A stretch of DNA of 38,025 nucleotides from Desulfovirgula sp. (GTDB taxonomy: Bacteria; Bacillota; Desulfotomaculia; Desulfotomaculales; Nap2-2B), in NCBI GenBank assembly GCA_020725585.1, contig DYES01000091.1, positions 1 through 38,025 on the forward strand, given 5' to 3'. This document shows positions 4,164-34,166 of this stretch, piece by piece; position 1 is the stretch's first letter, and each line of letters begins with the position of its first letter. Position numbers and translations under genes: made by a program. The notes beneath the pieces are model-generated. The model had not been told where the DNA came from. It worked only from the letters and a program-made list of their open reading frames with translations, and ran no database searches.

Positions 4164-4394
4164 CTATTCGTCGTTGCGGATCTTCCCGTGCCTGGTCAAT
4201 ACCTCAACCCGCCCGCGGATTTTGATGGCCGAAGTGTGTTCGGTAAACTGAGCAATCATGATCTCGCCCTTATCCAGTTTTTCTGAATGGTGAAACTTCG
4301 TGTCTTTGCCGCGGGTGAGGCCGATTACCGTGGCGCCGTTTTCCAGAGCTTTAATGACGATGTAATCATCATAATGTTTCCAGGCCTCAGACAT
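4164..4394 (-). CDS. mtrB: Trp RNA-binding attenuation protein TRAP
   Basis: TRAP is an 11-subunit ring that binds tryptophan and then wraps RNA carrying (G/U)AG repeats, causing attenuation or translation block of trp genes. The 76-residue sequence matches the Bacillus family closely, with [21 protein letters not shown] and [14 protein letters not shown]. The RNA-contacting residues known for the family are present as Glu38, Lys39, Lys58 and Arg60, and the tryptophan-binding Thr/Gly loop is intact. The ATG has AAAGGAG ten nt upstream. It lies 47 nt downstream of dnaE on the same strand. No trp biosynthesis gene or anti-TRAP gene is in the window, so its targets must be elsewhere or unconventional. 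Confidence 0.95.
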
Positions 4395-4441: not shown

Positions 4442-7400
4442 TTATACCTCCTTCACCCTCACGTTTTCCGCACCCAGGATATTTTTCAGTTCAGACACCA
4501 CGGGCGTCGACAAATCAACCCAAAACTCCCGGGGGGCAAGGGCCAGTTTTTTATCCTTGGGAAAATACAGGTAAACAGAAGAAGGTCCCGGATAACTGCG
4601 CAAGACAAGCTGGACCCGCGTAATCAAGTCCAGCGAGGCGCTTTTAAACTGGAGATAAACATTGCCGGACAGTTTCTTTTTGACCGGAGAAATCTCCTCC
4701 GCCACCACTTTTGTTTCTTCGTCATTAACGCTTACCCGCCCGCGCAAGAGAAAAACCCTGTCCGGTCCGAGCAGGCTCTTATACTCTTGGTAGGTCCGGG
4801 AGAAGAAAATTACTTCGCAGGAACCGGTCAAGTCCTCAAACTGGCACCGGGCCATGAGCTCCCCTTTGCGGGTGTTGATTTTCCTGACGGCGGTAATCAT
4901 TCCGCCCAAAACCACCGGGCTGTTTGGTTCCATTTCCTTTATCTCGACCACGCTTGCCGTGGCCTGCTGGCCTAACACCTGGCGATACTCGGAAAGGGGG
5001 TGGCCGCTAATGTACAACCCTAAAGCCTCTTTTTCCATGGCCAGCAGCTGGCTCTGCGGATATTCATCAAGATCGGGCAGTTCAAGGGAAAACGCGTCTT
5101 CTGCATAGTCTCCCCAGAAATCCAGCAAAGAAAGCTGGCCGTTGGCCCGCTCCCTGGCCGCCTGCCCGGCCAGTTCCAGGGCGCTGTCAATCACGGCCAT
5201 CAACTGCGCGCGCCGGTGGCCCAAAGAATCAAAGGCGCCGCTTTTAATTAGACTTTCCAATACGCGCCTGTTTATTACGCGCGTGTCCAGCCGCCGGCAA
5301 AAATCAGTGTAACTGCGGAAAACTCCTTTTTGCTGCCTTTCCTGGATAATGACTTCGACCGCACCCACCCCGACGTTTTTAATCGCCGCCAGCCCGAAGC
5401 GTATTTTCCCACCCACGACTGTAAAATCCTTTTCGCTCTCGTTGATGTCGGGGGGAAGCACTTCGATGTGCAGCCGGCGGCATTCCTCCACGTAGGCGGC
5501 TATTTTATCCGTATTGTCCCGGACAGAAGTAAGCAGGGCCGCCATGTATTCCGCCGGGTAGTTAGCCTTTAAGTAGGCCGTCTGGTAGGCGACCATGGCG
5601 TAGGCCGCACTGTGGCTTTTATTAAAGCCATAACCCGCAAAATATTCCATTAAATCAAAGATCTGACCGGCAATTTCGGGATCGCAGCCGTTTTTTACGG
5701 CACCTTCCACAAACTGCGAACGCAGACCGGCGATAATTTCCGGTTTCTTTTTCCCCATGGCACGGCGCAGGAGATCAGCCTCGCCCAGTGAAAAGCCGGC
5801 CAGATCGCTGGCAATGCGCATCACCTGCTCCTGGTAAAGAATGACCCCGTAAGTATCTTTGAGAATTGGCTCCAGCTTCGGATGCAGGTAGGTTATTTTT
5901 TTCTGGCCGTGTTTTCTTTTTATAAAATCTTCCACCATCCCGCTCCCCAGCGGACCGGGACGGTACAGGGCAACCAACGCGACAATGTCTTCAAATACCT
6001 CCGGACGCAGATCTTTTAATATGGAGCGCATCCCGCTGCTTTCCAGCTGAAACACGCCGGCCGTTTCCCCCGCGCAAAGCAGCGCGAAGGTCCTGGGGTC
6101 GTCCAAAGGAATCTTATCGATGTCCAGCGCCGGGCCCCCGTTTTTTGAAATTAAGCGGACGGTCTCAGCGATTACCGTTAAAGTGCGCAGGCCCAGCAAA
6201 TCCATTTTGAGAAGCCCCAGTTCCTCAATCTGGTCCTTCGCAAACTGGGTGGTCAACGGCCCGTCAGCGGCTTTATACAAGGGCAGGTAATGGGTTAAAG
6301 GCTCGCGGGTGATCACCACGCCGGCCGCGTGAGTGGAGGCGTGCCTGGGCATGCCTTCCAAAAGAGCGGCCATGTCAATCAATTTTTTGATCTGCGGATT
6401 TTGTTCGTACATCTCCCTTAATTCCGGAGATTCGTTAAGCGCCCTCTCGATGGTAATGTGCAGTTCCGCCGGGACCAGCTTGGCCACCCGGTCTACTTCC
6501 GCGTAGGGCATGTTCAATACCCGCCCCACGTCCCGGATCGCCGCGCGCGCCATCATCGTTCCAAAGGTGGCTATTTGCGCCACCCGGTCGGCCCCGTATC
6601 TCTGGGTCACGTAATTGATCACTTCGCCGCGGCGCTCAAAGCAAAGGTCCACGTCCACGTCGGGCATGGAAACCCGGTCAGGATTCAAAAAGCGCTCAAA
6701 GAGCAGGCCGTATTTTAACGGATCGAGATTGGTAATCCCCAGCAGGTAGGCGACCAGGCTGCCGGCCGCCGAACCGCGCCCGGGCCCTACGGGAATGCCG
6801 TGCGAGCGCGCGTAATGAATAAAGTCCCAGACGATTAAAAAATAAGCGGAATAACCCATTTGTCTGATGACTTTCAGTTCGTACTCCAGCCGCCGGCGTA
6901 TCGGTTCGGTAAGTTCCCCGTAGCGCCACTGTACGCCCTGGCAGCACAACTCTTCCAGGTAGGAATCGGCGGTTTTCCCCTCCGGAATAGGGTAATCGGG
7001 AAGGTGCAGCTGGTTAAAGGTCAACGCTACGTTGCAGCGCTCGGCAATGGCCAGCGTGTTTTTAAGCGCAGCATCCAGTTCGCCAAATTTAAGCGCCATC
7101 TCCTGGGCGCTTTTCAAATAAAGCTCGTTGGAATTAAAGCGCAGCCGGTTGGGATCATCAACGGTTTTACCGGTCTGGATGCATAAGAGCACGTCCTGCA
7201 TTTCGGCATGCTCGCGCTTAACGTAATGCACGTCATTGGTTGCCACCAGGGGTATCTGCAAAGAGCGGCCCAGCTCTACCAGGCCGCGGTTGATGGTAAG
7301 CTGCTCGGGTAGGCCGTGATCCTGGAGTTCTAAATAAAAATTGCCGGGGCCGAAAATCTCGTTATATTCTTTGGCCGCCTCTTTCGCTTTTTCCACCTGG

Positions 7401-9337: not shown

Positions 9338-9375
9338 AAAAATTAAAAAGGTACACCCGTAAGAAGAAGTGTACC
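9338..9375 (-). terminator. Terminator of the TPP riboswitch expression platform
   Basis: On the minus strand GGTACAC, a 12-nt loop and GTGTACC (7 perfect base pairs) are followed by TTTTTAATTTTT. It lies just downstream of the TPP aptamer and about 90 nt before thi4, so ligand binding probably favours this hairpin and stops transcription. Confidence 0.85.
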
Positions 9376-9385
9376 CCAAAACATT

Positions 9386-9478
9386 TCTCCCTACGCGGGC
9401 ATTATCCCGATCAGGTTTCGCGGGTCAGGCGCTAGATTAGCCCTTTCTCAGCCCCTCACGCCAGGAGCTCCCCGTTGT
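9386..9478 (-). promoter_or_regulatory. TPP (thiamine pyrophosphate) riboswitch
   Basis: The minus strand contains all the conserved THI-box blocks in order: GGGG, a hairpin AGCTCCT/AGGGGCT, GGGGCTGAGA, then ACCTGATC, GGGATAATGCCCGCGTAGGGA. These are the pyrimidine- and pyrophosphate-sensing arms of the TPP aptamer. It is placed in the 5' leader of thi4 and followed by an intrinsic terminator, so control is likely by transcription termination when thiamine pyrophosphate is plentiful. The exact ends of P1 are uncertain. Confidence 0.95.
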
Positions 9479-9525
9479 CCACTTTTACATTTAGGCAATT
9501 CCACAAAACAATTGGAAATCCTTCT

Positions 9526-14816: not shown

Positions 14817-15168
14817 TGGTGGAGGCGGGGGGAGTCGAACCCTCCGTCCGAAAGACAGACCACAGAAGCTTCTCCGAGCGCAGGCTGCGTTTTACTTTCG
14901 CCCTGCAGGCGCCCGCAGCCGGGCTCCCCCAGAGCTATCTCGATGGGTGTCCCACCGGACCTCCGAGAATTGGCCCGGCGGCTAGCCCGTTAAGGTGACA
15001 CCCTTACCTCACGCCACGGGCCGGCGTAAGGAGGATGGGCTGCTCAAATTATGCAGCCAGAGCGTATTCTTTGTTGGCAGTTATTGCCTTTCCACCGTTT
15101 TCCGGGCTGGTGGAACCCCGGCTCGCTTCTCCTGCCATCTTGTCCTCCGTCGAAACCATTTCGCCCCC
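14817..15168 (-). ncRNA. ssrA: Transfer-messenger RNA (tmRNA)
   Basis: tmRNA rescues stalled ribosomes together with SmpB. The 352-nt RNA starts GGGGGCG and ends CGCCTCCACCA, which pair as a 7-bp acceptor stem with encoded CCA. A T-arm-like GGTTCGACTCC and the conserved 5' segment GGTTTCGACGG are present. The tag reading frame (15078-15049) reads ANKEYALAA then TAA, a typical proteolysis tag ending ALAA; the resume codon is inferred as GCC after AATAACT. Promoter and terminator flank it. smpB lies about 230 nt upstream on the same strand. It is a one-piece tmRNA, not the permuted kind. Confidence 0.96.
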
Positions 15169-27899: not shown

Positions 27900-27974
27900 T
27901 GGTGCGCCTGGCAGGAATCGAACCTGCGCACCCGGCTCCGGAGGCCGGTGCTCTATCCACTGAGCTACAGGCGC
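27900..27974 (-). tRNA. tRNA-Arg (anticodon CCG)
   Basis: The minus strand folds as a standard cloverleaf: acceptor GCGCCTG/CAGGCGC, D-arm GCTCAGTGGATAGAGC, anticodon stem CCGGC/GCCGG with loop CTCCGGA (anticodon CCG, reading CGG Arg), T-arm GCAGG TTCGATT CCTGC. CCA is encoded. Single gene with its own promoter and terminator. Confidence 0.97.
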
Positions 27975-29217: not shown

Positions 29218-30102
29218 CTAAAAAATTACTTGCCCTAATTTTTGCGTGACCGCTCCCGGACGACCGTCGCCGATCATCCGCCCGTCCACTTCCACCAGCG
29301 GCATTACCCCCATCAGCGCATTGGTCAGGAAACATTCCCGGGCCTGCCAGATTTCCTGCGGGGAAACAACCCTCTCTTCCGCCTCAATACCCAGTGCAGC
29401 GCACTTTTCCAGAACCGCCTGACGGGTAATTCCCGGCAAAAGCCCCTGGTCTAAAGCAGGGGTAATCACCCTGTCTTCCCTGACCAGGAAAATATTGCTC
29501 ACCGAACCTTCCGCCAGGTTTCCTGCCGTATTTAAAAAAAGGGCTTCGTCCCAGCCGCGGGCCCTGGCTTCCTTTTTGGCCAGCAGGTTTTCCAGGTAGT
29601 TTAAGGTTTTCAAGCCGACCAAAGGGGAGCGCTCGTTTTTTCTGGCACTGACAAAACCGGCACGCAGGCCGCGCCGGTACTGATCCGGCGTGTAGGGCAA
29701 GCCCCGGCGGGCAAAAATTACCAGGGTGGCTTGAACGGCCGCGGATTTTTCGCCCTGGGCGCCGGGGAAATGTCCGGCCATCGCTTGCGCCCCCACTCCC
29801 GCCGACAGGGTGAGGCGCAGCGAGCCGTTTTTGACTTTGTTTTTCCGAATTGTTTCTTCAATCATCCGGGCCAGCCCGGCGGCCGAGAAAAAACAAGGGA
29901 TTTCCAGGGTGTGCGCAGAGCGAAACAAGCGCTCCAGGTGCCGCTCTAAAAAAACGGGACGGCCGCCTTTTACGAAAATTGTTTCAAAAAGGCCGAAACC
30001 GTAGAGAAAACCCTGGTCCAGCGCAGAAACGAACGCCTTCTCCGCAGGCAGAAAATCACCGTTTAAACAAATGATCTCCATACTAAAACGAACACCTCTC
30101 AT
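29218..30102 (-). CDS. pabC: Aminodeoxychorismate lyase (class IV aminotransferase fold)
   Basis: PabC removes pyruvate from 4-amino-4-deoxychorismate to give p-aminobenzoate for folate. It has the fold-type IV PLP pattern: LNGDFLPAEKAFVSALDQGFLYGFGLFETI, Lys165 in LVGLKTLNYLENLLAKKEAR as the PLP lysine, DEALFLNTAGNLAEGSVSNIFLV and TPALDQGLLPGITRQAVLE. Branched-chain or D-amino-acid aminotransferase is the alternative on sequence alone; the position 67 nt after pabB favours PabC. ATG 30102 has GAAGGGG 7 nt upstream; ATG 30081 matches homologue starts and is possible. 294 aa. Confidence 0.85.
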   Translation of the reverse strand: MRGVRFSMEIICLNGDFLPAEKAFVSALDQGFLYGFGLFETIFVKGGRPVFLERHLERLFRSAHTLEIPCFFSAAGLARMIEETIRKNKVKNGSLRLTLSAGVGAQAMAGHFPGAQGEKSAAVQATLVIFARRGLPYTPDQYRRGLRAGFVSARKNERSPLVGLKTLNYLENLLAKKEARARGWDEALFLNTAGNLAEGSVSNIFLVREDRVITPALDQGLLPGITRQAVLEKCAALGIEAEERVVSPQEIWQARECFLTNALMGVMPLVEVDGRMIGDGRPGAVTQKLGQVIF

Positions 30103-30169: not shown

Positions 30170-31678
30170 TTATTTCCTTAAGCCTGATTCCCACGATTTA
30201 CTGGCGCCGCTTTTTGCCTCTTTGCCCAGGGCAATCATTAAGGCCAGGGCCTTGTCCAGCGTCTCCCGGTACTCGGCCAAGGGATCGGAGTCCGCCGTAA
30301 TCCCCCCGCCCACCTGAAAGTGCGCCCAACCGTCTTTAACGACAATTGTCCGGATCGCAATATTGAGGTCGGCATCGCCGTGAAAGCTGAGGTAACCGAT
30401 GGAGCCGGTATAAATTCCCCGCCGCACCGGTTCTAATTCTTCAATGATTTCCATCGCCCTGATTTTGGGGGCGCCGGTGATCGAACCGCCGGGAAAGGCG
30501 ACTCCCAAAAGGTCCACGGCATCTTTTTCCGGCGGCAGCTCCCCGGTAACCGTGGAAACCAGGTGAAAAACCGTAGCGTACTCTTCCAACCGGAACAACT
30601 CGGGCACCTGCACCGAACCCATCTGGCAGATCCGGCCCAGGTCATTGCGCTCCAGATCGACAATCATCACCAGCTCGGCTCTGTCCTTTTCGCTGTTCCA
30701 CAACTCGTTGCGCAGGCGGAGATCTTCCCCGGGGCTTTTCCCTCGCGGGCGGGTGCCCTTGATCGGCCTCGTTTCCACCTTTTTGCCGGTGACCTTGAGG
30801 AAGCGTTCGGGAGAAGCACTGACCACCCGGACATCCCCGAAATCCAGGTACGCCGCCATGGGCGCCGGGTTTATGACGCGCAGGCGCCGGTACAACTCCC
30901 AGGGTTCGGTCGGCAAAGGAAGGGAAAAGCGCTGGGAAAGGTTTACCTGGTAAATATCGCCGGCCCGGATGTACTCCTTGGCCCGCCGGACGATCCCGCA
31001 GTAGCTTTCTTCGTCAAAATGGCAAAACAATCCCCTGCCTGGGGCGCTTTTTTCGCGTCCCGCAGAAAAAGCTTTCCCCGGAAGTTCCCGGCAAGCATGT
31101 CCCGGCCCCCTTTTTTCCTGCGAACGGCCAAAATTCCGAAAAAGGGTGTTGCGCACCTCTTCCAGCCGCCTGCGGGCCCGGCGCCGGGCTTTTATCGGGT
31201 CCGTTTCCGGCAGCCCTGTAGAAATAATGTACACCTCCTTGCTCACCTGATCAATCAGGATCCCCACATCGAAAAACCCGAGGCAGAGATCCGGCAAAAA
31301 CAAATCATCCGCAGCCCGGGCGGGTAATCTTTCCAGCATGCGCCCCAAATCGTAACTAAAGTAACCTACCGCCCCGCCGCAGAAAGGAAAAGGGAAATCG
31401 CCCAAGGCAAGTTTGTAGGCGTTTAGCACTTCTTTTAATTTTGCCAGGGGGTGGCCGGTAACAAGCTTTCTGCCTTGCCTGCCGATCAGTTCTAAAAAAT
31501 ACTCCCGGGAGCGAAAAACCAAGAAAGGGTCCGTCCCAAGAAAAGAATAGCGCCCCAGCCCTTCCATAACCAGGCTGCTGTCCAAAAGAAAAGAATGTGT
31601 TCGGCCGGCCAGGGCCTCATAACAGGCCAAAGCGTCGGCGGGCAATTCAATCCGCTCAATCAAGGGCAGCCCGGACAT
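30170..31678 (-). CDS. pabB: Aminodeoxychorismate synthase component I
   Basis: PabB converts chorismate and ammonia to 4-amino-4-deoxychorismate in folate synthesis. The N-terminus has the FLLDSS(x)6GRYSFLGTDP region and the C-terminal half the chorismate-binding fold, with PIKGTRPRG, RAELVMIVDLERNDLGRI, GGSITGAPKIRAMEIIEELEPVRRGIYTGSIGY and a closing GGGITADSDPLAEYRETLDKA. Lys307 in PIKGT is the PabB-type catalytic lysine; TrpE has alanine there, so this is not anthranilate synthase. ATG 31678 has GGGAGGA about 8 nt upstream; the start ten codons earlier lies in the leader. No glutaminase subunit (PabA/TrpG) is in the window. The leader has a promoter, a Trp-codon ORF and a terminator. 502 aa. 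Confidence 0.92.
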   Translation of the reverse strand: MSGLPLIERIELPADALACYEALAGRTHSFLLDSSLVMEGLGRYSFLGTDPFLVFRSREYFLELIGRQGRKLVTGHPLAKLKEVLNAYKLALGDFPFPFCGGAVGYFSYDLGRMLERLPARAADDLFLPDLCLGFFDVGILIDQVSKEVYIISTGLPETDPIKARRRARRRLEEVRNTLFRNFGRSQEKRGPGHACRELPGKAFSAGREKSAPGRGLFCHFDEESYCGIVRRAKEYIRAGDIYQVNLSQRFSLPLPTEPWELYRRLRVINPAPMAAYLDFGDVRVVSASPERFLKVTGKKVETRPIKGTRPRGKSPGEDLRLRNELWNSEKDRAELVMIVDLERNDLGRICQMGSVQVPELFRLEEYATVFHLVSTVTGELPPEKDAVDLLGVAFPGGSITGAPKIRAMEIIEELEPVRRGIYTGSIGYLSFHGDADLNIAIRTIVVKDGWAHFQVGGGITADSDPLAEYRETLDKALALMIALGKEAKSGASKSWESGLRK

Positions 31679-31761
31679 AAAACAATTCCTCCCGTTCCTA
31701 AAAAACAAAAAGACCAGCCTTGCTGGTCCTCACCCCAAATCTCCGAGTCGTCTTCGCTCAT
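31660..31761 (-). CDS. Putative leader peptide with two Trp codons upstream of pabB
   Basis: A 33-codon ORF (ATG 31761, TGA 31662-31660) begins MSEDDSEIWGEDQQGWSFCF. Trp codons are at positions 9 (31737-31735) and 16 (31716-31714). The ORF crosses the terminator hairpin of the pabB leader, and its second Trp codon is inside the 3' arm; it stops after overlapping the pabB start in another frame. A ribosome held at Trp9 would cover the 5' arm of the hairpin (begins 9 nt further) and allow read-through. There is no clear SD before this ATG; a 7-codon TTG ORF (31780) preceded by GAGAAGAAAG ends at an overlapping ATGA and could supply ribosomes. The idea is inference. Confidence 0.45.
   Translation of the reverse strand: MSEDDSEIWGEDQQGWSFCFLGTGGIVLCPGCP
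31700..31728 (-). terminator. Attenuator-type terminator in the pabB leader
   Basis: The minus strand reads GACCAGC, loop AAG, GCTGGTC (7 perfect base pairs), then TTTTTGTTTTTT. It lies only about 22 nt before the pabB start codon and well after the promoter, so it is a leader terminator, not the end of the gene upstream. Confidence 0.85.
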
Positions 31762-31824
31762 TGAAAAGCTTTTTTGCTCAACTTTCTTCTCAGCTCAGCT
31801 TTAAATTTTCAAGATTCTGCAAAA

Positions 31825-31853
31825 ATATTACCATGATTTCAAAACCAAGTAAA
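31825..31853 (-). promoter_or_regulatory. Promoter for pabB-pabC
   Basis: The minus strand has TTTACT (31853-31848), a 17-nt spacer and TAATAT (31830-31825), each 4 of 6 to consensus. It begins just past the stop codon at 31862 and gives a leader of about 140 nt before pabB. Confidence 0.55.
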
Positions 31854-31861
31854 GAGGTATC

Positions 31862-33118
31862 CTAGACCATTTCCAGAAAGCTTTCCACGCGGGTGACGGT
31901 CTGGCCCTCCATAAAATTGCGGGGATCGATGCAATCGCCATCCAGGTCGAGAAAGGGAATTCCTTCTTTATTTAAGGCGGCCCGTAAAAGGGCTGCGGCC
32001 CCGGTGCTTTGGCGGCAGCCCCAGTGAGAAAAGTGAATCACGCCCTGGGCATGGTAGTCGCGGACCAGCCTTAAAACCAGGTTTACCCGCTTTTCCCCGG
32101 GCCCCCAGAGAGGATTGGCCAGCATTTTAGCGGCAATTCCTTCTGCATATGCGTCCGGGGGAATCTCCTCCCAAAACACATAGCTTACCTCTTCAAAGGC
32201 AATGACGCTTTGGTGCCCAATCTCGAGCAAATCCAGTAGCGGATTGGCGTAAAAGGGCTTGAAATGCAACCAGAGCAGCCGCCTCTTTTGCTCCGGCACA
32301 ACGGGCGTTTTTTTCCTTACCCGGCGGCTTAAAACCCGCTCCAGCTCCCGGTAAAAACTTAGCGCTTCCGCCGTTCCTAACCCGTTTAAAAAGAGAATTA
32401 CCAGGGTGAGCGCCTCGCTCCCCCGCCATGGAGCGGGAACATTTTTGCGCAACTCGTTTACCGCTACCATGTGCCGGCGCGTCGCGTTTACGTTGGCGAA
32501 CACCCGTGCCGCTTCCTTTGGCCGGGCGGGCAAGAGAGTTTTCAGCTCCCTTTGGAGGGCCCTGATTTCCCCCGCCAGCCATGACCTCGCCTGGGGGGTG
32601 TCCCGATAGGGGACCGGCAGCAAAAAGTAGGGGCAACCGTAAAGCCTGCCGGCCGCCTCCAAAAATTTAACCGCTCCGTCGCACAAGTGGCTGCTGGCGA
32701 GAATCAAATCCGGCCGGGGCAGAAGCCTTTCCATGGCCATCCCCAGGGCGCAGCGGTGAAAGCTGCATAAATCCGTGGAATACCAGGCGCCTTCGGCAAC
32801 TTTGAGAAAATAGGTGCTCCAGCCGAGGTTGGCGGCCACCGCGGCGGCCGCTTCCGGCATGAAGGGAATCCCGCCCCAGGCCCAGATCAGCTCCGGCGGC
32901 GTGTAAACATTGGTCCACACCACCGGCCGGGCACCCTGGTAGGCTTGCCGCAGCAACCTGGTCCCGAACAGCAGGGAAGCCTTGCTGTGGCGGTTCAGCT
33001 TCCCGAGACACCACAGGCCGCTCAGCAATTCTAAAAATAAATAAGTCCGCGGCGATGTTACGTACCTGTGCCACTCGCCATTTTGGGTTTTCCGGTAAAT
33101 GTATTCTTTAATGTTCAC
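31862..33118 (-). CDS. 2-hydroxyacyl-CoA dehydratase-like subunit (HgdB/BCR family), larger
   Basis: A 418-residue member of the 2-hydroxyacyl-CoA dehydratase D-component family, [4Fe-4S] proteins that in known enzymes remove water from hydroxyacyl-CoAs after ATP-driven electron injection. The start of the fold is RPVVWTNVYTPPELIWAWGGIPFMPE; Cys residues occur in DLCSFHRCALGM, SSHLCDGAVKFLE and HFSHWGCRQSTGAAALLRAAL, at the family's cluster-ligand positions. GTG 33118 has AAGGAG about 10 nt upstream; earlier in-frame starts lie in the preceding gene. It starts 38 nt after its partner subunit. No CoA-transferase or activator ATPase is in the window, so the substrate, or even a CoA ester, is not certain. 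A double-cubane-type reductase is an alternative. Confidence 0.82.
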   Translation of the reverse strand: MNIKEYIYRKTQNGEWHRYVTSPRTYLFLELLSGLWCLGKLNRHSKASLLFGTRLLRQAYQGARPVVWTNVYTPPELIWAWGGIPFMPEAAAAVAANLGWSTYFLKVAEGAWYSTDLCSFHRCALGMAMERLLPRPDLILASSHLCDGAVKFLEAAGRLYGCPYFLLPVPYRDTPQARSWLAGEIRALQRELKTLLPARPKEAARVFANVNATRRHMVAVNELRKNVPAPWRGSEALTLVILFLNGLGTAEALSFYRELERVLSRRVRKKTPVVPEQKRRLLWLHFKPFYANPLLDLLEIGHQSVIAFEEVSYVFWEEIPPDAYAEGIAAKMLANPLWGPGEKRVNLVLRLVRDYHAQGVIHFSHWGCRQSTGAAALLRAALNKEGIPFLDLDGDCIDPRNFMEGQTVTRVESFLEMV

Positions 33119-33156
33119 GGCTGAAAATCTCCTTGGCAAGAGAAAGATCAAAATGC

Positions 33157-34143
33157 TCAAATCGTCTCCAGAAAAGCCTGGATGCGGGTGCGCAGCTGAC
33201 CGGAAATGCCTCCTGAATACTCGCCTTCCAGGTGCAGGAAGGGAATTTGCCGCTGACTGCACAAAAAACGCCACAAGGGCACCTCGTAGAGCCCATGATC
33301 GCAGAATTTCATCCCGTAGTAAATCACTCCGGCGGGAAGGGTACGCTCAAGAATAGTTTGGATATAAAGGGAGCGTTCGTTTTTCCCCGTCATCCGGGGA
33401 CAAGGGGGCTTGCCCAGGTAGGCCCTCGCCAGGACCAGCCAGGGATCGCCGCCGCAAGGATAATCTCTTGCTCCGTATTGGACATGAAAACGTTCTCCAC
33501 AACAAAAATCGGCAAAAACTGCTGCCGCATCGCTTTCTTCCAGCAGGGCAAGGATGCCCCGTTCAGGCAAAAAAGTGCCGGCGAGCAAGACGCGGCGGTC
33601 TTTTTGCCCCGACCCGCTTAAGACAGAACCGGCCTGAAAAGAATCAAGCAATTGCCGGGTTTCTTCCGGGGCGCAGGTTAAAACGGCAAAGAGGAGATCG
33701 AAAAACTTTCTGCTCATCCCGGTTGCGCCGGCGACCGCTTTTAATTTTGCCCGGATGCCCCCGTAGATTTTGATCGCCTCCCGCAGGGCTCCCTCCGGGA
33801 TGGGGCGGCCTCCTGCCGCCTCCAGCCATTCGGCCAGCCGTAACAATTCTTCCCGATAATAGCCGACGCCGGACTCGTCATCCTGGCGGGGGAGGTCCAG
33901 AATGAACACCCGGCCCCCCTGCGCCTTGCGGACGTCGTAACAACGACGCAACCCGTCGCAGCAGGCGGTGAAGATGACCGGCGCGGTCAATTTGGCTGCC
34001 GCACAGGCTCGGGCATAAGAGCAGTAGCTGCGGGGAAGCAACCCCGTTTCCTCCCCTGCCGGAGGAATCAGTCGGGAGGGGATCAAACCCGCAGCGTAAA
34101 TTATTTCTACCGGTACGTAAGAACAAGTGGTATAAACAAACAT
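33157..34143 (-). CDS. 2-hydroxyacyl-CoA dehydratase-like subunit (HgdB/BCR family), smaller
   Basis: A 328-residue partner of the same family. It begins FVYTTCSYVPVEIIYAAGLIPSRLIPP, the usual opening, with SYCSYARACAAAKL, FTACCDGLRRCYDV and late YYGMKFCDHGLYEVPLWRFLC, FLHLEGEYSGGISGQLRTRIQAFLETI. These Cys positions match iron-sulfur ligands in the D-component family, and the GxxSGQLxTRxxAF tail is a hallmark. ATG 34143 has CAGGGTG about 8 nt upstream. The larger subunit follows 38 nt downstream, so the two probably form a heterodimer. The MazG-like gene precedes it by about 20 nt. Confidence 0.84.
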   Translation of the reverse strand: MFVYTTCSYVPVEIIYAAGLIPSRLIPPAGEETGLLPRSYCSYARACAAAKLTAPVIFTACCDGLRRCYDVRKAQGGRVFILDLPRQDDESGVGYYREELLRLAEWLEAAGGRPIPEGALREAIKIYGGIRAKLKAVAGATGMSRKFFDLLFAVLTCAPEETRQLLDSFQAGSVLSGSGQKDRRVLLAGTFLPERGILALLEESDAAAVFADFCCGERFHVQYGARDYPCGGDPWLVLARAYLGKPPCPRMTGKNERSLYIQTILERTLPAGVIYYGMKFCDHGLYEVPLWRFLCSQRQIPFLHLEGEYSGGISGQLRTRIQAFLETI

Positions 34144-34166
34144 AAAAGACACCCTGTTCACCTACA

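Follow-up and report, generated by a model that had tools for sequence, protein, structure and literature searches.

The locus raises the question of what governs the expression of pabB, a gene preceded on the minus strand by an intrinsic terminator and by a short ORF with two Trp codons that runs through it. The window, i.e., the whole stretch of 38,025 nucleotides from Desulfovirgula sp. that was analyzed, had earlier been interpreted from its letters only, and in this sequence-only reading a ribosome stalled at the Trp codons of a leader peptide would prevent terminator formation, with pabB sensing charged tRNA-Trp. Our analysis supports the outline of that proposal, a Trp-responsive attenuation of pabB via the terminator, and does not support ribosome stalling as its mechanism. 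The pabB leader is probably a transcription attenuator that would bind TRAP (trp RNA-binding attenuation protein), with TRAP and tryptophan promoting termination. The genes and leader elements concerned are as follows.

30170..31678, minus strand: pabB, aminodeoxychorismate synthase component I, the gene under the proposed control (TIGR00553, 366.9 bits, cut-off 328.4)
29218..30102, minus strand: pabC/ilvE-like fold-type IV aminotransferase gene, downstream of pabB in the same direction
31814..31842, minus strand: putative promoter TTGAAA-17-CAGAAT (9/12 match), with an expected transcription start at ~31807
31729..31747, minus strand: hairpin P1', CUCG (31747-31744) / UGAG (31732-31729) with loop GAGAUUUGGGG, from RNAalifold on 52 sequences
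31700..31728, minus strand: intrinsic terminator GACCAGC-AAG-GCTGGTC (31728-31712) and T-run TTTTTGTTTTTT (31711-31700), flush against P1'
31660..31761, minus strand: 33-codon ORF MSEDDSEIWGEDQQGWSFCFLGTGGIVLCPGCP, present and judged not functional (frame not conserved, chance-level length)

The NCBIfam model trpE_most scores under its cut-off on the protein of the pabB locus, and a separate TrpE homologue is encoded in the trp operon on contig C72 of the same genome. For the product of 29218..30102, several NCBIfam family members matched, none of them over its cut-off, and from its sequence the gene is probably that of aminodeoxychorismate lyase. The leader lies in a gap of ~180 nt on the minus strand between the gene at 31862-33274 and pabB, and this gap contains, in order, a weak promoter, GAG/AAG triplets, a strongly conserved core, the terminator with its T-run and the Shine-Dalgarno sequence of pabB, which is held in the 22 nt separating the T-run from the pabB ATG at 31678. 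Within the window, a promoter match of this quality is no more frequent than expected by chance (1 found vs 1.1 expected), and many relatives have clearer TTGACA/TATAAT-like promoters at the same place. The genes at 31862-33274 and 33157-34161 (minus strand) overlap each other and belong to the double-cubane/2-hydroxyacyl-CoA dehydratase family, with scores below curated cut-offs.

Homologous leaders were searched with a covariance model of the core and terminator, in an order scan of 113 genomes (a class scan gave the same 113) and in a phylum sample of 399 genomes. The leader was found in 40 of the 113 genomes of the order (E <= 2.8e-8) and in about two dozen more of the phylum sample, and in nearly all readable cases it stands directly before pabA(-pabB) or pabB; outside the order, two leaders have no downstream gene assignment (G186, at a contig edge, and G235). 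RNAalifold on 52 sequences gave two abutting hairpins, P1' and the terminator. The terminator is more than a chance match in the sequence, because it covaries across the 52 relatives: 98.6% of cells are paired, two pairs are changed on both sides, and the lowest pair is seen as A-U, G-C, G-U, C-G and U-A. P1' is paired in 52/52 sequences, with a compensatory change from U-A to G-C in seven sequences of two lineages (family f46 and G088), which read CGCG/UGCG. The 5' strand of P1' overlaps the last triplet positions, and its predicted stability is small (-2.0 kcal/mol). Other pairings were tried and rejected: the hairpin ACUC/GGGU is broken at two pairs in 7/52 sequences and shows no changes on both sides, neither GGU/ACC nor GAG/CUC shows such changes, and a sequestering of the core CUC by upstream GAG triplets is not maintained in family f46, whose core has CGC in place of CUC. 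A T-box, riboswitch or other known RNA was rejected on the absence of an Rfam match to the leader at the gathering threshold, the best permissive match reaching 20 bits where the cut-off is 60.

Two accounts of the terminator do without TRAP. In the leader-peptide account, a ribosome stalled at the Trp codons would cover the 5' arm of the terminator, so that uncharged tRNA-Trp would lead to transcription of pabB. The elements named for it are in place, namely the 33-codon ORF, the Trp codons (the first TGG at 31737-31735, immediately before the terminator, and the second at 31716-31714, within its 3' arm), the 7-bp terminator, its T-run and, 22 nt further on, pabB, and G001 of the same genus resembles the window in having an in-frame ATG and one Trp codon; however, the ORF is of chance-level length, an ATG staying open as long as this in ~26% of cases at the local base composition. 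No Shine-Dalgarno sequence precedes it (AAGCTTTTCA-ATG), where a weak one had been supposed, an in-frame ATG is found in only 4/63 homologous leaders and a TGG in the same frame in 16/63, and in G004, G006 and G010 of the same family a TGA stands in the ORF frame just before the core. The spacing from core to terminator shifts by non-multiples of three among homologues and, since the loop between CGGAG and GGGGUGAG is of variable length, selection cannot be acting on a peptide frame. Conservation of the frame and Trp codons in relatives, by which the sequence-only reading had proposed to be judged, is thus absent, and both ribosome stalling and the sensing of charged tRNA-Trp are highly improbable here. 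It is just as improbable that the hairpin merely terminates the upstream gene and has no regulatory role for pabB. That gene is indeed on the same strand, with its stop codon 134 nt 5' of the terminator, but the whole leader accompanies pabA/pabB across ~12 families with different upstream sequence, and the short interval from the T-run to the pabB start is mostly Shine-Dalgarno region, leaving no room for another promoter.

The sequence-only reading had overlooked two features of the same window, an array of NAG triplets upstream of the terminator and the gene for a protein that would bind it.

31741..31801, minus strand: putative TRAP-binding array of ~11 positions (sequence and 5-nt periodicity in homologues)
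4164..4394, minus strand: mtrB, encoding TRAP (76 aa), the likely regulator (PF02081, 135.6 bits at 4173-4370)

The 5' part of the array consists of AAG (31801-31799), GAG (31796-31794), GAG (31791-31789), AAG (31784-31782) and GAG (31779-31777), and the 3' part of AAG (31771-31769), GAG (31759-31757), AAG (31754-31752), GAC (31749-31747) and GAG (31743-31741). This array is degenerate compared with those of relatives (4 GAG plus AAGs), and taken by itself it gives weak chain statistics; the TRAP assignment therefore rests on homology to regular arrays. The homologous leader family as a whole has (G/U)AG arrays with 2-3 nt spacers and ~11 positions. When 63 homologous leaders were pooled, 182 GAG/UAG pairs were spaced 5 nt apart, whereas 300 dinucleotide shuffles gave 28.7 on average (sd 5.1, maximum 43), and the spacing upstream of the core peaks at 5, 10, 15, 20 and 25 nt. 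The array spans ~53-58 nt where the first triplet can be placed, which is room for eleven positions. Of the core triplets, the first varies as G/A/U/C-AG and the next is G/U-AG in most leaders, so that the AG needed by TRAP is kept. On this comparison of sequences, the pabB leader RNA very probably contains a TRAP-type binding site. A strict five-triplet KAGNN pattern had no match in the own genome and is too strict for mapping the regulon.

The mtrB product matches solved TRAP structures in phmmer searches (E 1.4e-29 to chain 1c9s, and in the 1e-53 class to MtrB 9bds). In the phylum sample, mtrB is present in 28/28 leader-bearing genomes, from ~12 families, vs 200/399 overall (p 1.5e-9, ignoring relatedness). 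Within the order it is present in 39/40 leader genomes, but also in 105/113 overall, so that the comparison there says little. Control of pabB by Trp is thus likely, with free tryptophan, sensed by TRAP, as the signal instead of tRNA-Trp.

Terminators that respond to tryptophan and precede biosynthetic genes include E. coli-type Trp leader-peptide attenuators and Trp T-boxes, from which the pab leader differs in having no conserved leader peptide and no T-box match in Rfam. In B. subtilis, TRAP also represses translation of trpG (pabA), which lies inside the folate operon. There, the target of TRAP is translation within an operon, whereas in the pab leader a promoter-proximal site and a terminator precede pabA-pabB or pabB. 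That tryptophan and TRAP control p-aminobenzoate genes in B. subtilis is attributed to Yang et al. (1995), as cited in PMC3913778, and the TRAP attenuator of the trp operon of that species has been described (PMC3913778). In the leader of B. subtilis trpEDCFBA, as in the pab leader, an 11-position (G/U)AG-type array precedes an intrinsic terminator and the structural genes, and the genome has a TRAP gene. The own trp operon of Desulfovirgula (L004, contig C72 9000-24000, ~4510-4660) has a regular array of 10-11 TRAP triplets and a terminator; its leader is predicted to fold into an antiterminator when free and into the terminator when the triplets are held open, and is of the B. subtilis trp attenuator type.

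The pab leader departs from this type. The trp attenuator sets a stable antiterminator against a weak terminator, whereas the pab leader has a stronger terminator, the extra hairpin P1' and no conserved antiterminator. Swap tests of the upstream repeats against the core, or of the core loop against the 5' arm of the terminator, gave z values from -0.66 to +1.9, while the two arms of the terminator, as a positive control, gave z = -6.1. In predicted folds the terminator forms in TRAP-free RNA with a mean probability of 0.95, and with triplets 1-11 held single-stranded it still forms, with a probability of 1.0. As far as sequence allows, the pab leader is thus like a TRAP-controlled leader in its array and in the intrinsic terminator downstream, and unlike a trp-type attenuator in lacking the antiterminator.

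From these features, we infer that TRAP binds the leader and promotes termination. When tryptophan is plentiful, the TRAP ring would bind ~9-11 NAG triplets in the nascent leader. The array ends a few nt before the terminator, where transcription would stop, and expression of pabB (in relatives, of pabA also) would fall along with that of the trp operon; under tryptophan limitation, the leader would be free of TRAP and more polymerases would read through. Since the leader has no antiterminator, direct action of TRAP on polymerase is the best available model, and our guess is that TRAP would act on the paused enzyme, with P1' modulating the TRAP-terminator junction. In B. subtilis, TRAP is able to cause termination even when the attenuator hairpin is missing, the sole requirement being an A+U-rich stretch 3' of the TRAP site, and direct action of TRAP on polymerase has been proposed on experimental grounds (PMC3913778). 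There is one reservation: Glu60 of B. subtilis TRAP has been suggested to contact polymerase (PMC3913778), and in our own comparison this position appears to be Arg in Desulfovirgula TRAP. For a TRAP attenuator we count the presence of mtrB, triplet periodicity, the conserved hairpin and terminator, gene context and mtrB co-occurrence, and against it the degenerate array of the window, the missing antiterminator, the invariant core and the strong-looking terminator. Because there is no antiterminator and the terminator is predicted in TRAP-free RNA, the leader might terminate transcription constitutively, or the role of TRAP might be a different one.

Such a role might be of opposite sign, TRAP on triplets 10-11 melting P1' or hindering the terminator, so that tryptophan would raise pab expression and direct chorismate to folate. 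An activator would make sense where the terminator is the default, and the sharing of the P1' 5' strand with the last triplets, together with its position flush on the terminator, also speaks for it; however, P1' has little predicted stability to lose, the predicted terminator persists when the triplets are held open, and all effects of TRAP on trp genes that we know of are negative, and we regard activation as unlikely. A further rival concerns the core. Across families, there is almost no variation in GACGACUCG and GGxxUGAG; TRAP requires only NAG, which does not account for this, and the invariance may mark a further input. A second factor, either a protein or a small ligand such as a folate-pathway signal, might then read the invariant core and P1', TRAP being only a co-regulator, and the trp leader of the same genome is without an invariant core. 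As a ligand-binding RNA, however, the core would be very short, there is no Rfam match and no candidate factor, and every leader-bearing genome of the phylum sample has mtrB; we consider a principal role of such a factor slightly less probable still than activation. Returning to TRAP-promoted termination, we suggest tentatively that it works here as an antiterminator-free switch, in which TRAP and a covarying hairpin flush with the terminator would together render the folate genes of many clostridia-like families responsive to tryptophan in a way that differs from the trp attenuator, and the core may supply a second input.

TRAP is a textbook regulator that has been studied mainly in Bacillus and has few known targets. 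If our assignment is true, a TRAP leader conserved in ~12 families would extend this regulator to the chorismate branch point towards folate, via transcription attenuation, and would tie folate synthesis to tryptophan supply in many related bacteria. It would also allow termination by TRAP in the absence of an antiterminator to be tested in a natural setting, an activity that has been proposed for B. subtilis TRAP and is not settled. In the open literature on TRAP with pabB, trpG or folate, or in these clostridia, we found no earlier description; most subscription journals are outside this coverage, so that an earlier description is possible.

The gene content of the genome and its relatives adds to the picture of the pathway. 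Only one TrpG/PabA over cut-off is found in the assembly (83% complete), and it is located in the trp operon; folate and tryptophan synthesis therefore probably share a single TrpG/PabA. In G001 of the same genus (L048/L011), a frameshifted relic of a pabA start lies between the leader and pabB, reading MVVVID.. and then, in another frame, NNDSFIY. This relic suggests an ancestral order leader-pabA-pabB, with pabA lost from the operon in the G001 lineage. In G319 (L129), the leader core is fused to pabB at about codon 13, and the terminator, Shine-Dalgarno sequence and start codon are missing; this junction is either a deletion or a misassembly. Contig C244 of G087, an assembly with 7% contamination, carries two strong leader copies (16458 and 27654), each followed by a pabA start. 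Elsewhere in the window, Rfam matches were found for a TPP riboswitch (9368-9484), a tmRNA (14817-15168) and a tRNA (27903-27974), all on the minus strand.
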